Positions 55,476-63,413 of a DNA stretch of 64,000 nt are shown piece by piece. Numbering within the stretch: the stretch's first letter is position 1; each line of letters opens with the position of its first letter. The notes below the pieces were generated by a model, which was given only the letters and a program-made list of their open reading frames with translations, ran no database searches and was not told where the DNA came from. Source of the DNA: Rosistilla oblonga (GTDB lineage: Bacteria; Planctomycetota; Planctomycetia; Pirellulales; Pirellulaceae); the NCBI RefSeq assembly GCF_007751715.1, contig NZ_CP036292.1:1674001-1738000 (forward strand). The letters are read 5' to 3'. The translations under genes were made by a program, and so were the position numbers.

Positions 55476-57017
55476 ATGAAACTTGTCGTCCTCCACAATC
55501 ACTTTGATCGTGGCGATGTCACGCAAGTGGTTCTAAATCATCTGCAAGCTTTGGCCGCCAGTCAGCTTCCGATCGATCGGGTTTTGTTGCTGCACGGTGG
55601 ACGCGACGCGGGCCTTTCCGATTTGCAAAGCCTTCGCTTTCCCGTCGATGCGATTTCTGTCGACGCTCTCTCGGATGATTCTTCGTCGATAGATCAGTCA
55701 CAGGCTTTGACCGATCAGATCGCCCAAGCGATCACCGCTGCCGGTGGTTCTCGCGACGACACCCTGCTGCATTTTCATAATCACAGCCTCGGTGAGCACC
55801 TGTTGCTTCCCGAAGCTGTCGCCCGGTTGGCCGAAGCGGGCTGGCCGATCGTATTGCAGATCCACGATTTTGCCGAAGACTATTCGTCCGCAAACTATCA
55901 ACGCTGGATCCAGTCGCTCGCCACACAGTCGCCCGATCGGGTCGAACGCCATCTCTATCCGCAAGCTGCCAATTTGCATTACGTCGCCGCGACACAGCGC
56001 GATCACCGTTTGTTGTCCGCGCTGGGCGTCGCCGATGCGGTGTTGCATCGCTTGCCCGCGACCGCGCTGGCGATTCCGGAAAGCCAGCTCGATCGCGCGG
56101 CTGCGAAACGCAAGTTGACCGCGGCGTTGGATCTCGATGCGGACAAGCCGCTGGGGATTTATCCGGCATGTGGCACCCGAGCCAAGAACATCGGCGAGCT
56201 GCTGCTGTGGAGTGCAGTTTGCGACGATGCGACGTTTGCCGTCGCGGCGCCGCCCACCGATCCTGTCGATCAAAAGATGTATGCGATGTGGTCGACTTTC
56301 GCCCGCAACCAGCAACTGCCGGTGCGGTTCGACGCGGAGCTTGTCGAAGGGATCTCGCGAGCCGAATTGCTGGCCGCGGCCGATTTCTTGTTCACGTCGA
56401 GCGTCGCGGAAAACGGAGCGTCTGTTTTTCTGGAAGCCATGTTGGCCGGACGCCCGCTGCACGGTCGCGACCTTCCGGCGGTTACCGACGACCTACGCGC
56501 CGCCGGATGCGAATTCCCCGGTCTTGCGCCGTCGCTTTCGATCCCAGCCGCTGTGATCGGGCAATCGGCTCAGCCACAGATCTGGGAAGCCTATTGTGCA
56601 GCGTGGGGCTGGTTGCCCGACGGGTTTATCGACGCCTTGGATTTGGAGTCGGTCGATCGCGGGCCGATCGTCGGCGACATCGACTTTGCCCGTTTGCCGA
56701 TCGGCCTGCAGGCGAGAGCGATCGCCGCGGCGAAGTCCGATCGTAAGCTGGCTGGCCAAATTCGCGACGCCAATCCCATCATGCACGACCTGCCCGCAGC
56801 ACCCGGCGACCCGCAGCCGCATCTCGCTGCCAACGCGCATCGAGCGGCCGAAGCGTTCAATGAATCGGCGCTCGCCGATCGGTTGACGCAAATCTATCGA
56901 GCCGCCTTGCAAAGTGATCGCGATGCCGGAACGACGGCTCCCGCCAGCGCCGGGCAGTTGTTCGTTCAGCTGGCCCGCTACGAAGCCTTCACGCCGTGTC
57001 GCACGATCGAATTGTGA
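55476..57017 (+). CDS. Glycosyltransferase-like protein (GT-B fold, GT4-type)
   Basis: A 513-residue cytoplasmic protein. MKLVVLHNHFDRGDVTQVVLNHLQAL is the GT-B N-terminal strand and helix that binds acceptor. A histidine-rich segment (LLHFHNHSLGEH) and VLQIHDFAEDY lie in the usual place, and VEGISRAELLAAADFLFTSSVAENGASVFLEAMLAGRPL is the donor-binding E-x7-E-type block of GT4 enzymes. The C-terminal ~120 residues are helical. The sugar is unknown. It starts 28 bases after tRNA-Leu. Confidence 0.72.
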   Translation: MKLVVLHNHFDRGDVTQVVLNHLQALAASQLPIDRVLLLHGGRDAGLSDLQSLRFPVDAISVDALSDDSSSIDQSQALTDQIAQAITAAGGSRDDTLLHFHNHSLGEHLLLPEAVARLAEAGWPIVLQIHDFAEDYSSANYQRWIQSLATQSPDRVERHLYPQAANLHYVAATQRDHRLLSALGVADAVLHRLPATALAIPESQLDRAAAKRKLTAALDLDADKPLGIYPACGTRAKNIGELLLWSAVCDDATFAVAAPPTDPVDQKMYAMWSTFARNQQLPVRFDAELVEGISRAELLAAADFLFTSSVAENGASVFLEAMLAGRPLHGRDLPAVTDDLRAAGCEFPGLAPSLSIPAAVIGQSAQPQIWEAYCAAWGWLPDGFIDALDLESVDRGPIVGDIDFARLPIGLQARAIAAAKSDRKLAGQIRDANPIMHDLPAAPGDPQPHLAANAHRAAEAFNESALADRLTQIYRAALQSDRDAGTTAPASAGQLFVQLARYEAFTPCRTIEL

Positions 57018-57420: not shown

Positions 57421-58632
57421 ATGCCTCGCCCCTTGATATTCGCTCTGCTTCCACTGATCTGCTGTTTGACCTTCTTTGCCCACCGCGTCGATGCCGATGA
57501 CTCGCTGACCCTCGATCCGGCGAACTCGATCCTTCGCGGTGATTTCCAGAATGCGAAGATTCTGTTTGAACGAGAGCATCGCGGGCACGTCGCGTTTATC
57601 GGTGGATCGATCACCGAAATGGATGGCTATCGCCCGATGGTGATGAAGTCGCTGCAGGAACGTTTTCCCGATATTAAGTTCACGTTCACCGACGCTGGGA
57701 TCTCGTCGACCTGTTCGACAACGGGAGCTTTCCGGCTGCAGCGTGATGTGCTGGACAAAGGGCCCGTCGATCTGTTCTTCGTCGAGTTTGCAGTCAACGA
57801 TGATCAGGATGCGATGCACTCGCGTGAAGCTGCGATTCGCGGGATGGAGGGGATCATCCGCCACGCCCGCTTGCACAATCCAAACGCCGATATCGTGCTG
57901 ACCTACTTTGTGAACCCGGGAATGTTGGCCACGTCGCAACAGAAGAAAACTCCGCTCTCGATCGCCGCTCACGAAGCGGTTGCCGAACATTATCAAATCC
58001 CCGCGATTCGGCTGGCTCGGCAGGTTGCCAGCAGCATTTCCGCGGGCGATCTCAGCTGGGATGTCTACGGTGGCACGCATCCCAAACCGGCGGGGAATCG
58101 GATCGCCGCCGATCTGATCGACCAACTGCTGGACGCTGCTTGGAAGGGAGACAAGAGCGCAGAGGACGCGAAGCTTGCGGCGCATCCGTTGCCCGAGCCG
58201 ATGGATGCGGACAGCTACTTCCGCGGCCGGTTGTTGGATCTCGCCGACGTGGATCTGATCGCAAAAGCGACGGTCAAGGTTCCCGATTGGGATGCGCTTC
58301 CCGGGGGCAAGCGAGGTCGCTTCAAACGCGAACGATTGCTGTGCCTGGAGGGTGTGGGAGCTGAGTGCTCGCTGAAATTCAGCGGCACGGCGATCGGAGC
58401 TTATGTGTTGGCGGGACCCGATGCGGCAACGGTCGAAGTGAGTATCGACGGCGGTGAATTCCAGCCGGTCGAACTCTACCACCATCACAGCAAAGGGCTG
58501 CATTACCCGCGGACTGTGATGTTCGCCACCGATTTGAGCAACGATGCGCATCAGATCAAACTGCGAGTTGCTGCGTCGCCGGAGCATCCAGAACGGCAGG
58601 TCGCTCGGATCTTAAACTTCGTCGCGAATTGA
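57421..58632 (+). CDS. Secreted SGNH/GDSL-family hydrolase
   Basis: A 403-residue exported esterase-like protein (signal peptide, cleavage near residue 25). HVAFIGGSITEMDGY holds the block I Ser (S63 in GGSIT), VEFAVNDDQD resembles the block III Asn region, and VYGGTHPKPAGNRIAA at about 215-230 holds the catalytic His (H220). The remaining ~150 residues form a strand-rich module (LCLEGVGAECSLKFSGTAIGAYVLAGPDAATVEVSIDGGE), similar to carbohydrate-esterase accessory domains. It probably deacylates polysaccharides. It is convergent with the LptC/A-like gene. Confidence 0.87.
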   Translation: MPRPLIFALLPLICCLTFFAHRVDADDSLTLDPANSILRGDFQNAKILFEREHRGHVAFIGGSITEMDGYRPMVMKSLQERFPDIKFTFTDAGISSTCSTTGAFRLQRDVLDKGPVDLFFVEFAVNDDQDAMHSREAAIRGMEGIIRHARLHNPNADIVLTYFVNPGMLATSQQKKTPLSIAAHEAVAEHYQIPAIRLARQVASSISAGDLSWDVYGGTHPKPAGNRIAADLIDQLLDAAWKGDKSAEDAKLAAHPLPEPMDADSYFRGRLLDLADVDLIAKATVKVPDWDALPGGKRGRFKRERLLCLEGVGAECSLKFSGTAIGAYVLAGPDAATVEVSIDGGEFQPVELYHHHSKGLHYPRTVMFATDLSNDAHQIKLRVAASPEHPERQVARILNFVAN

Positions 58633-58702: not shown

Positions 58703-61700
58703 TTAGAATCGCGGCTGTTGCGTGTTGGGCGTCGCGGTTTGAGGCTGAGGTGGAACGCCGAAGCCTTGCTGTAGATCGCCGAGGTTCAAGTTTTGAATCT
58801 GCAGATCGATGATCTCTAGCGTTCGCGGTTTGAACTTCAAGATCTCGGCTTGAAACGATCCGCCCGATTGGCCGTTGGCGTATTGCCGCTGCAATTCGAC
58901 GGGGCGATTGCGGACCCCTTCGATCACGAACAGGTCTTTGTCGGCGATGTAGCCCATTCGGTCGGCGGTTCCGCGGAACAAGCCCTTCTCGTTGCGACCC
59001 TGGAACGCAACGTTCGACATCGCTTTGGCTTCCCATTGGCCAAACGATTGGCCACGTAAATTAAACTGATGTGCCGACGGCGTTTGCGAAAACTCCAACT
59101 GGTCGCAGTCCAAGACGGCTTGCCCGTCCTGTGCTTCGACGATCTGCCGCGCGTCGATCCGTTGCTCCTCGTTGGCCACCGGAGAGGTTGCGACGCGGAC
59201 ACCGCGGACAAATCGCAACACCTTGTTGGCGAAGTTGCCTTCGATCTTCTCCTGGTAGACCAGGTGAGCGGCCAGCCAGCCGCCGGTTTTCGAGAGCGTT
59301 GCCAGTGGGCCCGAGTCGGTCACTTCCGGCTTGCTCCACATGTGGTACCAACCCGGCCCACTTCCCAACAGCTGCGATTGGGCTGGGGTCACGTCGAGGG
59401 TGGGCAATTGCAATTGGTGGCTGCCCATCAGATTGCCGCGAAGATCGCGTTGGACCGCGGACAGCAAGACTCCATTGCTGTTTGCATCGATCCCGCGAAA
59501 CGAGATCCTTTCGACATCGGCTTGCTTCGAAGCGTCGGGAGCTGTGAAGTTGATCCGCTGGGCCAAACTGACTTCCAACAAATCGCAGCCGACGTGCAGG
59601 TCCCAACGCGTCGGTTCGTCCAGCGTCGTCACTGCTCCGGTCATCTTGACGCCACGCATCAATTGAGCGGTGCGGCCGTTGAATTGCATCTGACCTTCCC
59701 AAGTGCAGCGCGGCGGCGCGACCCAGCGGAAGTTCGATTCTCCGGCGGCTGACAGAACCGAGGTCGGCATTTGGAATTCGCCGGCGCGGTCCATGAACAA
59801 CGAATTGTCGCCCATTCGCAATTGGACCATCGGGCCGCGGAAGTAGCCGTCGGCGATCTCGATCTGTGCCGGGAAGCCGGAAACCTGGACGATCCGCCCT
59901 TCGTCGCCGTCGACAAAAATCAATTCGCGTCCGGTCAAGACGACCGGCAACGGTCCCTGTTGCGATTCGAGAACGTGTTCGATGCGGACGTCTTCGTTGA
60001 TCGAAAACTCATGCGCGACAGCGTTCTTGCCGTCGGTCAAAATGTTCGCCGACAACGTGCGGCCGCTGATATGAGGCCGTGGCTGGCTGGCGGCGGCGGG
60101 CTGCCCAAAGCCAGCGCCCAAACCTCCCGTCGCGGCGACCGACGATTCGGGTTCCTTGGTCCACAGTTTCAACGACTCTCCCGAAGCGCGATTCAGCCGC
60201 AGTTGTTGCTCCGGCGGCGAATCGGCGGTGACTTGTTCGATGAACAGGTCCAGCTGTTCGGTCTTGGCGTAGATCTCGCGCGTGTCGAACAGCACGTTCC
60301 CCTTGGCGACCAAGCTCTCAGGGCGGAATCGTCCCTTCAGCGGTGCATCGTCATCACCTTGCTTGGACTCAGGCGTTTCGGGCAACAGCGTGAAGCCTAG
60401 GCCAAGGCTGTCGGTGCGGATCCGGCCATCGTCGGGCAGGATCGCCGACGCTTGCAGCATCCACAACTGATACTTGTTCGGTTCGGTCTGGGGCGTGATC
60501 CGCAGTTGATCCTGCCATCCGAAAGATCGAAAGGGCATCGTCGGATCGTGTGCAATCAAGCGTCCCTCGCCCGCGGCCTTTAATTGGATCAAGTCGGTTG
60601 GAGCGCCGGGAGTAAAGCGATACTCAAAATCGGTCAGCACCAACTGCATCGCGCGATGGGCGATATCGATCCCGCGCGAACTGGCGATTCGAATCACGCC
60701 GCTGCGGAAATCGGCGTCGATCAATTCGGCGGAGACGCGCGTCATCAACGTCGGCGCGTCGAAGGTGACTGGGCCACCAAAGGCGCGGACGCGACGGATC
60801 ATCCGATCGGGAGACGGTTTGGCGACCGAGTTGCCAAACGGATCTTCCAGCTCGATCGCCAAATTGGGACATCGGATCACATCGACTGGTAGGCCGGGAC
60901 CGCGGTGTTCGATCGTGACTTGATTGCTTAGCGACAACGTGTAGGTGGCGAAATCGAACCGCATCGCGCCGCCGCAGCGAACGTCTAGACTGCCGCCAAC
61001 GCCCGATGGCGGGATCGATCCCGGCGGACGCGCGGCCAGGACTTCGGGGAGCGCTGGCCAGAGGGTTCCTTGTTCCAACGGGACATGCAGTCGATCCAGA
61101 TAGATCAACGTCAGTTCGTTCAGCACCGCCAGAGGTGAATCGGAACGCTGAGTGGGAATTTTGCCGCCGCCAGCTAATGCGATCGTCAAGTCGCGGCCTT
61201 CGGCGACGGCGTTGCCAACCTGCACGCGGACCGGTGCCGTCGTCCAGATCTTCTTACCATTGATGCGGACGTCGCTGGCATTGATCTGCAACCGATCGCT
61301 GCCATCGCTTTTGGTGGCTGGGCCGATGATCTGCACGTTGCCGATCAGATGGCCTCCTTGAACCGGCGGCGTGCTGCCATCGATCACCGACAGTGATTCG
61401 GCGAATTCGATCTCCGCACCACCGGGGGCTTCCAACAGGATCGGACGACGCATGTTGACTTCGCCGCTGGGCGTTTCGCCCGCTGAATCATCGCTGCGCA
61501 GCAACAACGTGACGGGAGACAGCTTCCAGCGATTATCGCTCAACCGTTGCCAGTCTTTGAACAACAGCACACCGATCTCGGTTTCGATCTGCTTGGGCGA
61601 TTCACGCTGCCACGATCCCGGTTTGAAATATTCAGCGATCTTCGAATCGCCGACGTCCGATGGCGCGCGGATCGGGATCTCGGCAAGCTGCTTTTGCCCC

Positions 61701-61792
61701 ACCAACGCTGGCGCGATTGCATAATCGTAGCCCCAGGCTGCCAACAAGCAGACCACAAGCGCTTTGATAAAATCCAACGGTGAAGTGGGCAT
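58703..61792 (-). CDS. Giant LptC/LptA (OstA)-like lipopolysaccharide-transport protein
   Basis: A 1029-residue protein with one N-terminal membrane helix (about 9-30), then a strand-rich body. It resembles LptC (an anchor plus a bridge domain) followed by LptA/OstA-type repeats. A repeat-like block near the middle reads SLVAKGNVLFDTREIYAKTEQLDL. The C-terminal 145 residues (885 onward) read VLDCDQLEFSQ, then LFRGTADRMGY at about 938-948, then DLFVIEGVRNRP, the OstA pattern in which a G-x-GTAD-x-M-x-Y word precedes the LEG word. It ends in a Gln/Pro-rich tail. AGGA lies 5 bases before the ATG, only 8 bases after kdsC. Normal LptC (~190) and LptA (~185) are far shorter. Role inferred from fold pattern plus operon. 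Confidence 0.68.
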   Translation of the reverse strand: MPTSPLDFIKALVVCLLAAWGYDYAIAPALVGQKQLAEIPIRAPSDVGDSKIAEYFKPGSWQRESPKQIETEIGVLLFKDWQRLSDNRWKLSPVTLLLRSDDSAGETPSGEVNMRRPILLEAPGGAEIEFAESLSVIDGSTPPVQGGHLIGNVQIIGPATKSDGSDRLQINASDVRINGKKIWTTAPVRVQVGNAVAEGRDLTIALAGGGKIPTQRSDSPLAVLNELTLIYLDRLHVPLEQGTLWPALPEVLAARPPGSIPPSGVGGSLDVRCGGAMRFDFATYTLSLSNQVTIEHRGPGLPVDVIRCPNLAIELEDPFGNSVAKPSPDRMIRRVRAFGGPVTFDAPTLMTRVSAELIDADFRSGVIRIASSRGIDIAHRAMQLVLTDFEYRFTPGAPTDLIQLKAAGEGRLIAHDPTMPFRSFGWQDQLRITPQTEPNKYQLWMLQASAILPDDGRIRTDSLGLGFTLLPETPESKQGDDDAPLKGRFRPESLVAKGNVLFDTREIYAKTEQLDLFIEQVTADSPPEQQLRLNRASGESLKLWTKEPESSVAATGGLGAGFGQPAAASQPRPHISGRTLSANILTDGKNAVAHEFSINEDVRIEHVLESQQGPLPVVLTGRELIFVDGDEGRIVQVSGFPAQIEIADGYFRGPMVQLRMGDNSLFMDRAGEFQMPTSVLSAAGESNFRWVAPPRCTWEGQMQFNGRTAQLMRGVKMTGAVTTLDEPTRWDLHVGCDLLEVSLAQRINFTAPDASKQADVERISFRGIDANSNGVLLSAVQRDLRGNLMGSHQLQLPTLDVTPAQSQLLGSGPGWYHMWSKPEVTDSGPLATLSKTGGWLAAHLVYQEKIEGNFANKVLRFVRGVRVATSPVANEEQRIDARQIVEAQDGQAVLDCDQLEFSQTPSAHQFNLRGQSFGQWEAKAMSNVAFQGRNEKGLFRGTADRMGYIADKDLFVIEGVRNRPVELQRQYANGQSGGSFQAEILKFKPRTLEIIDLQIQNLNLGDLQQGFGVPPQPQTATPNTQQPRF

Positions 61793-61799
61793 CCCGATC

Positions 61800-62318
61800 C
61801 TAACGCTGAACGACCAGCGAATCCCATTTTGATTTAGCGTGCAGCAAGCGTTCGATCATTTCGCGGACGGCTCCCGTTCCGCCGGGCAGCTTGGTGATCC
61901 AGGTCGCCGCCTTGCGAACATCGCTGGCCGCGTCGGAAACACAAACCGGTAAAGCGACACGTGTCATGACCGCCAGATCGGGCAGGTCGTCGCCAATGTA
62001 AGCCGTCTGTTCGGGGCCACATCCCGCCTCTTGCATCAGTTCGACGGCGGCGTCCCACTTCTGCTGGCAGCCTTGCCGCAGGCCGGTGATCCCCAGTTCC
62101 TCGGCGCGACGCGTAACGATCTCGCTGTTCCGCGCGGTGATGATCCCAAACGAGAACCCCGCTCGCTGCCACAGCTTGATCCCCAAGCCATCGCGGACAT
62201 GGAAGGCTTTCGTTTCGAAGCCCGCCGCGTCGTAGATGATCTGCCCATTGGTCAACACGCCGTCGACATCCGACAGGATCAACTTAATGGGAGCCGCGAT
62301 TTCGCTATCCGATTTCAT
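61800..62318 (-). CDS. kdsC: 3-deoxy-D-manno-octulosonate 8-phosphate phosphatase
   Basis: HAD phosphatase (C0 type, no cap) that removes phosphate from Kdo-8-P in lipopolysaccharide core synthesis; 172 residues, standard length. The motif ILSDVDGVLTNG has D17 and D19, FHVRDGLGIKLWQRAGFSFGIITARNS is the conserved KdsC core, the lysine is in GCQQKWDAAVEL, and AYIGDDLPDLAVM is motif IV. ATG 62318 is preferred over TTG 62324. It follows kdsD by 12 bases and is followed by the LptC/A-like gene, as in the kdsD-kdsC-lptC-lptA order of other Gram-negatives. Confidence 0.95.
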   Translation of the reverse strand: MKSDSEIAAPIKLILSDVDGVLTNGQIIYDAAGFETKAFHVRDGLGIKLWQRAGFSFGIITARNSEIVTRRAEELGITGLRQGCQQKWDAAVELMQEAGCGPEQTAYIGDDLPDLAVMTRVALPVCVSDAASDVRKAATWITKLPGGTGAVREMIERLLHAKSKWDSLVVQR

Positions 62319-62330
62319 ACTCAATGTTGT

Positions 62331-63413
62331 TCAAACCTGGGGACGCATGGGCAGGATCTGAGGCGGATTCGGTTCGTCGTTAGGCAACAAACTGACGATG
62401 TCGGTGATGTCGATCAGTCCGACCGGTCGTTGATTTGCATCGGTGACTGGCAGTTCGCTGATCCTTCGCTGGGCGAGGATTTGAATCGCATCTGCCAGCA
62501 ACGAGCCGCTGCGGACACGCGTCACCTGGCTCGACATCACTTCGACGATCGGCCCGTCCAACGCTCGCTCGCGACGGCGTTCCAACAGACGAGCCAAATC
62601 GCTGTCGGTAAAGATTCCCGACAGGCGTCCCTCTTGATCGGTCAGCATCACCGCGCCGGATCGTCTTCCCGATTTGCTGTTCATCACCAACACGTCGCGG
62701 ACCGAAGTGCTGTCCGATGCGATCCGGCATTGCCCAACGGGTCGCATCACGTCGTCGACGGAAGAGAGTTTTTGTCCGAGGCTGCCGCCGGGATGGTAGC
62801 GAGCGAAATCGCTGGAGGTGAATCCGCGGAGTTCGCTGGTCAACAGAGCCAATGCATCGCAGACCGCCAGCATCGCCGTGGTGCTTGTCGATGGTGCGAG
62901 TCCCAGTGTGCAGACCTCCTGCGTCGAACCGATCTCGATCACCAGGTCGACGCCTTGCCCCAGGGGACTGTTGGCCGAGGCGGTGATCGCGATTAACGAC
63001 TGCGATTGAGCCGACAGGGCGGGCAGCAGGCGGACGACCTCTTCGGTCTTGCCACTGTGCGAAAGCAGCACGACCACGTCGTCAGCTTGGACCTTGCCCA
63101 AGTCGCCGTGAACCGCTTCGGCTGAATGCAGGAAGTGTGACCGCGTGCCGGTGCTCGATAGCGTCGCCGACAGCTTCTGCCCGATGATTCCCGCTTTGCC
63201 GATTCCCGAGATGATCACCGAGCCTTTGCATGCGAGCAATTGATTTGCAGCGGCGACAATCCTTTGGTCGATCTCAGCCGCCAATCGGGTCAGGTGTTGT
63301 CCCTCGACACGGATCACATTGCGAGCGAATCGCAATTGTTCGATCGGCGTCGCGGCGGCTAGCGAATCGTTCGTGCAATCGCCCGCAGGCTTGGGGATTG
63401 GTTGGGCACTCAT
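62331..63413 (-). CDS. kdsD: Arabinose-5-phosphate isomerase (KdsD)
   Basis: Converts ribulose 5-phosphate to arabinose 5-phosphate, the Kdo precursor; 360 residues. The SIS domain (about 60-200) includes VIISGIGKAGIIGQKLSATLSSTGT, FLHSAEAVHGDLG and LLSHSGKTEE. Two CBS domains follow (about 220-345; VMRPVGQCRIASDSTSVRDVLVMNSKSG; FTDSDLARLLERR; RISELPVTDANQRPVGLIDITDIVSL). The N-terminal ~25 residues are an extra Ala/Pro-rich lead. It is first in the operon with kdsC and the LptC/A-like gene. Confidence 0.95.
   Translation of the reverse strand: MSAQPIPKPAGDCTNDSLAAATPIEQLRFARNVIRVEGQHLTRLAAEIDQRIVAAANQLLACKGSVIISGIGKAGIIGQKLSATLSSTGTRSHFLHSAEAVHGDLGKVQADDVVVLLSHSGKTEEVVRLLPALSAQSQSLIAITASANSPLGQGVDLVIEIGSTQEVCTLGLAPSTSTTAMLAVCDALALLTSELRGFTSSDFARYHPGGSLGQKLSSVDDVMRPVGQCRIASDSTSVRDVLVMNSKSGRRSGAVMLTDQEGRLSGIFTDSDLARLLERRRERALDGPIVEVMSSQVTRVRSGSLLADAIQILAQRRISELPVTDANQRPVGLIDITDIVSLLPNDEPNPPQILPMRPQV

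Follow-up and report, generated by a model that had tools for sequence, protein, structure and literature searches.

A putative one-chain LptC-LptA-type bridge protein encoded after kdsD and kdsC in the planctomycete Rosistilla oblonga

In a stretch of 64,000 nucleotides of Rosistilla oblonga (contig NZ_CP036292.1, positions 1,674,001 to 1,738,000; hereafter the window), kdsD and kdsC are followed by a third gene, an open reading frame (ORF) of 1029 residues whose product we call X. We propose that X is probably a one-chain periplasmic bridge of the planctomycete lipopolysaccharide (LPS) export (Lpt) machine, in which LptC and LptA are fused. This reading rests on gene order, on homology to LptA and, via relatives, to LptC, on internal repeats, and on a genome that also encodes LptB, LptF/G, an LptD candidate and LpxC. 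The gene (58703-61792, minus strand) was annotated as a putative fused LptC-LptA-type bridge protein from the PF03968 and PF06835 matches of its homologues, a profile match to the LptC-LptA fusions that other planctomycetes carry at this locus, and synteny.

Gene order around kdsD and kdsC

All three genes were on the minus strand in the ORF list. The first gene of the operon, kdsD (62331-63413, minus strand, 360 aa), encodes a sugar-phosphate isomerase of the KpsF/GutQ family (NCBIfam TIGR00393, 1.3e-72, over the cut-off; Pfam SIS and CBS). After a spacing of 6 nt it is followed by kdsC (61800-62324, minus strand), which encodes a phosphatase of 3-deoxy-D-manno-octulosonate (KDO) 8-phosphate, with 174 aa from a TTG start (NCBIfam TIGR01670, 1.8e-44, over the cut-off) and an alternative in-frame ATG at 62318, two codons past the TTG. 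The gene on the 3' side of X (57421-58632) is convergent, therefore X closes the operon. The operon of kdsD, kdsC and a long ORF given by the initial annotation was borne out, as the ORFs were as described, both enzymes exceeded their NCBIfam cut-offs and the order recurs in other genomes. The short gap between kdsC and X was also correct, but it is 7 nt (61793-61799) and not 8 bases. The host genome is a single contig of 7.25 Mb, and lptB, which had been described as not adjacent, was indeed found far from the operon at C1:2316032 by genome search.

X was present in 57 of 60 related genomes including its own (E<=1e-5). The three genomes in which it was not matched, G025 (78% complete), G032 (96%) and G057 (92%), are all draft assemblies. 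Neighbourhoods were counted in wider regions of 52 of the 57 genomes with X, own included; negative gaps in the resulting table are an artefact of the choice of the longest ORF start. The length of X across these 52 loci of the order was 956-1309 aa (median 1044), and in 50 of them kdsC, on the same strand, lay no more than 600 nt upstream of X. One locus (L070) had only kdsD upstream of X (43 nt), and another (L066) had neither kdsC nor kdsD. Related loci were found, for example, in Planctomycetes bacterium CA13 and Rhodopirellula maiorica SM1. In genome G023 (region L091:5131-9631), lptD (L091:6566-9631, plus strand) is divergent from kdsD-kdsC-X at 280 nt from the kdsD ORF, which links the outer-membrane receiver to the bridge operon. 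In G132, lpxB (4.3e-94) lies directly upstream of kdsD-kdsC-X, and an LpxA-like gene is found three genes farther upstream.

Beyond the genus, X was 19-35% identical to the window protein in an alignment of 48 homologues, whereas the main pieces of LptD were 40-54% identical, with homologues in 40 of 40 relatives. Sequence change thus seems to be faster in the bridge than in its presumed receiver at the outer membrane, a possible reason for the failure of profiles to find X.

LptC- and LptA-like parts of X, its homologues and shorter fusions

Other planctomycetes encode proteins of 559-720 aa (families f50, f54, f62, f71 and f76) at this locus, directly after kdsC, and these are LptC-LptA fusions. 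Family f50, with a protein of about 660 aa, is presumably anammox-like and is labelled so here. In all five short fusions scanned, LptC was matched over the cut-off (5.7e-19 in L143; 1e-11 in L148). LptA stretches over the cut-off numbered three in L143, three in L148 (1.1e-28) and four in L149, while the shorter L147 and L150 had one sub-threshold stretch each. When a profile of nine short fusions was compared with PDB sequences, 18 of 19 matches at E<=1 were LptC, LptA, LptH or LptD. The profile of X aligned with this short-fusion profile over 465 colinear columns (probability 98.2, E 4.6e-14); hhalign E-values here and below (X against fusions, self-alignments, controls and LptD comparisons) are pairwise and uncorrected for the number of comparisons. 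L156, from another class, had LptC over the cut-off in its N-terminal region (3.2e-8). Of nine proteins of other classes and families that were scanned, two (L151 and L155) had neither an LptC nor an LptA match.

A survey of 195 planctomycete genomes (at least 90% complete) with the X profile gave matches in 61 at E<=1e-3. The window's class, own genome included, accounted for 27, in which most of the model was covered (only 270-991 in G137; two pieces in G237); the remaining 34, outside the class, were partial and weaker. In this survey 114 genomes without a match were not itemised, and class members without X are therefore not countable. PF06835, searched over 195 genomes drawn alike, gave 39 matches, 38 of them over the cut-off and none in the window's class. 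The matching frame was 567-1751 aa long in 37 of the 39 and 408 aa in G228. The only LptC of normal size was found in G080 (174 aa, 3.7e-22), directly after kdsD-kdsC. We fetched 39 wider loci, chosen for a match to X or LptC and with L179 left out. The X profile matched in 33 of them (none in L146, L158, L160, L172, L177 and L178), and 29 of these 33 had kdsC or kdsD upstream on the same strand. Proteins at the X locus measured 559-720 aa in anammox-like and related planctomycetes, about 950-1300 aa in Planctomycetia, and up to 1441 aa, plus a 1751-aa frame, elsewhere. Lengths in the phylum seem to form a gradation, with a separate LptC at one end, short fusions in between and proteins of about 1000-1440 aa at the other.

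Several variations of gene content were observed at these loci. In family f21 of the window's class, kdsD was directly upstream of X, and kdsC was not found between them, in 10 of 10 loci (L161-L170). In G060, kdsC was found at the C-terminus of a 710-aa frame (L154:2889-5018), a possible fusion. A glycerophosphodiester phosphodiesterase with a HEAT-repeat tail follows the LptC-LptA fusion in L143 (8121-9902; GDPD 1.5e-23) and L149 (7816-9825; 9.5e-23), and in L148 the same enzyme is next after the fusion by sequence inspection only; in L144 and L150 it is not the next gene. No lptB was noted beside the fusion-phosphodiesterase genes of L143, L149 and L148.

Returning to X and its own homologues, 20 of 32 matched PF03968 (LptA / LptD N-terminal; best 2.4e-8) and six matched PF06835 (LptC; best 1.5e-6) at E<=1. 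When 27 of the homologues were scanned singly, 14 exceeded the PF03968 cut-off and one, L097, exceeded that of PF06835. L097, a member of the window's own family, has LptC at 138-236 (1.5e-6) and LptA at 899-1020, both over the cut-off; mapped to the window protein, these correspond to residues of about 103-210 and 853-982. A search of PDB sequences with the profile of 48 X homologues gave seven matches at E<=10, six of which were LptA (best 0.058) and the seventh a ribosomal protein. These matches, together with the LptC-LptA fusions at syntenic loci elsewhere in the phylum, supported the earlier proposal that lptC and lptA are replaced by one long protein.

An N-terminal hydrophobic segment of 19 residues (mean of at least 1.6) was present in 46 of 48 homologues and elsewhere in one of 48; its value in the window protein was 1.63. 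The corresponding helix of X (residues about 8-30; 61703-61771, minus strand), modelled with low confidence at 5-31, is presumed to be an inner-membrane anchor as in LptC. The LptC-like part (residues about 103-210; 61163-61486, minus strand) was mapped from L097; the window protein itself shows it only weakly. The best alignment of the LptC part of the anammox-like profile was there, at the expected place, but with an E-value of 0.034 it was not significant. This weakness in the window's class, with one of 27 homologues over the LptC cut-off, would suit an alternative in which X has lost the LptC role and works only as a row of LptA units, tethered to the membrane and docked directly on the beta domains of LptF/G. 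Such an arrangement has a precedent in E. coli, which can bypass LptC in LptF suppressor mutants (PMC9972910, PMC4986956). However, an N-terminal LptC match is kept over the cut-off in L097 and L156 and below it in L072 and L161, and the N-terminal helix is retained almost throughout the homologues. We consider this alternative unlikely.

LptA-type units were found repeatedly along the rest of X. In a profile self-alignment, the unit at 261-470 recurred three more times, at places that overlap in part (E 3.8e-10, 1.1e-7 and 6.4e-7). The best values of the controls were 2.3e-3 for the reversed profile and 0.025 for ten column shuffles, and chance similarity of beta-rich sequence was rejected by them as the source of the repeats. 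LptA units of the anammox-like profile matched X at four non-overlapping places (4e-11, 1.2e-5, 4e-7 and 1.6e-7; reversed controls 0.18-0.25). The first unit (residues 261-435; 60488-61012, minus strand) gave the match of 4e-11, and the model of residues 112-435 resembles LptA and LptC structures. A second unit (about 690-830; 59303-59725, minus strand) was supported by the self-alignment with unit 261-470 at 3.8e-10 and the anammox-like repeat at 4e-7, and a third (about 835-1010; 58763-59290, minus strand) by the anammox-like repeat at 1.6e-7 and by many of the best PF03968 stretches of the homologues, which map here. Possible extra OstA-like stretches lie at about 420-510, as estimated from profile columns 411-500 (60263-60535, minus strand; anammox-like repeat 1.2e-5), and at about 595-690, also from profile columns (59723-60010, minus strand; unit 261-470 against columns 564-705, 1.1e-7), the latter overlapping the next unit. 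Read from sequence profiles, X would contain three clear units of LptA type and probably a fourth.

Structure prediction was consistent with this for the first unit. The AlphaFold alignments comprised three sequences only, and the full-length model was kept out of the fold search. The model of residues 112-435 had a mean pLDDT of 66.8; most of 272-431 reached about 80-90, apart from an internal dip to 45. Foldseek against 350,542 PDB chains placed LptA first (2r1a, E 5.6e-3, probability 1.00, target TM-score 0.61). Within the best 50 of the 345 matches (E<=10), all those with a probability of at least 0.85 were LptA, LptH, LptC, LptD or a chain of an Lpt complex, if 4q35, whose title is just 'Structure of a membrane protein', is taken as LptD. 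At least one unit of X (about 272-431) is thus predicted to have the beta-taco (open jellyroll) fold. The initial annotation had suggested that one long jellyroll could span the wide periplasm; only the LptA-like domain at about 272-431 folded confidently, and the full-length model, with a mean pLDDT of 40.3, lends no support to a jellyroll over the whole length.

AsmA-like proteins also bridge envelopes, and the build of X, an N-terminal helix and about 1000 residues rich in strands as predicted in the low-confidence model, is similar to theirs. X could then be a protein of AsmA/TamB type, with a long beta-groove, that carries phospholipid rather than LPS and is beside kdsC by history. However, ten Pfam families in total were matched by the 32 homologues at E<=1 and none was of AsmA type, and the structure and profile matches were to LptA, LptC and LptD. 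The kdsD-kdsC neighbourhood also recurs across the phylum, and proteins of other classes there are LptC-LptA fusions. This explanation is very improbable.

Putative partners and cargo, and separate LptA or LptC

The genome of R. oblonga encodes one LptB (318 bits against a cut-off of 240), two genes for LptF/G (8.4e-42 and 1.3e-25) and LpxC (2.2e-78), a marker of lipid A synthesis. It also encodes an LptD candidate of 1127 aa (L086:8022-11402), in which the LptD Pfam domain starts at residue 637 with more than 600 residues before it, the first 200-odd being less conserved. A sub-threshold PF03968 stretch was found in three of nine LptD relatives. Comparison of the candidate with the X profile gave a possible OstA-like stretch at about 330-490, which is suggestive only (E 0.0033, probability 9.8), and that with the anammox-like profile was not significant (0.055). 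LPS is a likely cargo of X, because almost all lipid A genes were reported to be essential in Planctopirus limnophila (PMC10632474); the main text of that paper contains no occurrence of 'lpt'.

Several results weigh against a fused bridge. X itself matched no family of Pfam or NCBIfam at E<=1, so that of the OstA/LptC profile check suggested earlier only the homologues gave an answer, by their PF03968 matches and one PF06835 match over the cut-off. All 20 LptA matches sit within the 27 homologues scanned singly, therefore none falls in the window protein or its closer relatives L043, L044, L045 and L056. Only two of the six LptC matches (L097 and L072) are placed N-terminally, and those of L051, L057, L059 and L063 are at or beyond residue 365 and below the cut-off; the LptC part of the anammox-like profile did not reach significance on X, as described above. 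The full-length model, with its low mean pLDDT, had a pTM of 0.34, and Foldseek of residues 112-435 gave no match at E<=1e-3. The LptD candidate scored 24.2 bits in the genome search and 20.4 in the protein scan, around a cut-off of 22.4, and none of the nine LptD relatives scanned was over that cut-off. Finally, PF03968 found nothing in the genome at E<=1e-3, in a search so insensitive that it was also blind to X and to the N-terminus of LptD.

This last result bears on whether separate canonical lptA and lptC genes exist in the genome, which would have spoken against their replacement by X. None was found: besides the PF03968 search, neither a separate LptC (PF06835) nor OstA_2 (PF13100) was detected at E<=1. 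As PF03968 misses X and the LptD N-terminus, its silence is weak evidence, and a divergent separate LptA could be missed. The anammox-like profile, run over 40 relatives for a separate LptA, found X in only eight of them (E<=1), and therefore its silence also means little. In the own genome it gave one extra match (E 0.02), which was rejected as LptA since it lies in an ORF that reads as rlmN, presumably RlmN. Given the insensitivity of these searches, X could be no more than an LptC-like anchor of unusual length, with the bridge completed by a separate LptA that escaped detection. However, X already contains several LptA-type units, the C-terminal one yielding many of the best LptA matches of the homologues, and the three Pfam models found nothing in the genome, the sole extra weak match being the rlmN-like ORF. 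An anchor of this kind is therefore improbable.

Elsewhere in the window, a 513-aa ORF (55476-57014) had no real family match (best NCBIfam E 0.077, far under the cut-off).

Proposed bridge and comparison with known systems

In the fused bridge that we prefer, the N-terminal helix would anchor X in the inner membrane beside the LptB2FG pump, and the LptC-like region that follows the helix would sit beside LptB2FG. Several beta units of LptA/OstA type in the same polypeptide would carry the lipid A-KDO glycolipid onward in the direction of LptD at the outer membrane. A single chain of X may be long enough to span the periplasm. X is co-encoded with two enzymes of KDO synthesis.

As a tentative extension, the gene-encoded length of the covalent bridge might set the membrane spacing at LPS export sites, with lengths that differ between lineages along with their envelopes, so that a built-in ruler replaces the polymerisation of LptA. 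The periplasm of planctomycetes can be greatly enlarged and differs between cells (PMC5394234), and a fixed-length tether would thus dictate where LPS export can occur.

LptD homologues and lipid A genes are described for planctomycetes, and so is an outer membrane (PMC3422733, PMC10632474). LptD served as the Lpt marker in PMC3422733, and the planctomycete Lpt system was scored 'largely reduced' in PMC8871954. Among the open PMC matches listed, with subscription journals and supplements outside the scope, neither an LptC-LptA fusion nor a planctomycete Lpt bridge was described. We propose X as this missing bridge; fusion, a length several times that of LptC or LptA and, in many members, a divergence beyond the reach of Pfam would account for its being overlooked. 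The Lpt system and the Pfam domains were already known, and what seems new is that, in much of the phylum, one protein stands in for both LptC and LptA. With a natural bridge made as one chain, of a length that differs between lineages, one could test the number of LptA units needed to span the periplasm, and whether assembly and disassembly of the bridge are required.

The operon order of the E. coli type is kdsD-kdsC-lptC-lptA-lptB. R. oblonga shares with it kdsD-kdsC followed by the bridge, the N-terminal anchor, putative LptC-like region and LptA-like units of that bridge, and, in the genome, lptB, lptF/G, an lptD candidate and lpxC. Unlike the two E. coli-type proteins of under about 200 aa each, X is a single chain of 1029 aa; its LptA-type units are built in whereas LptA forms oligomers, lptB is not adjacent, and no separate LptA or LptC was detected. 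AsmA-like proteins and TamB share the long N-anchored beta-groove build, but the families differ, and X gave no sequence match or listed structure match to them. The short planctomycete fusions share with X the position directly after kdsC and a colinear profile match, but they have about two-thirds of its length and are much nearer to the Pfam models. Lineage-specific versions of Lpt, as in X, are also described in diderm Firmicutes and Borrelia; the former keep two OstA proteins of about 200 aa and the latter a separate LptC and LptA, whereas X is one protein (PMC5007114, PMC10353723).

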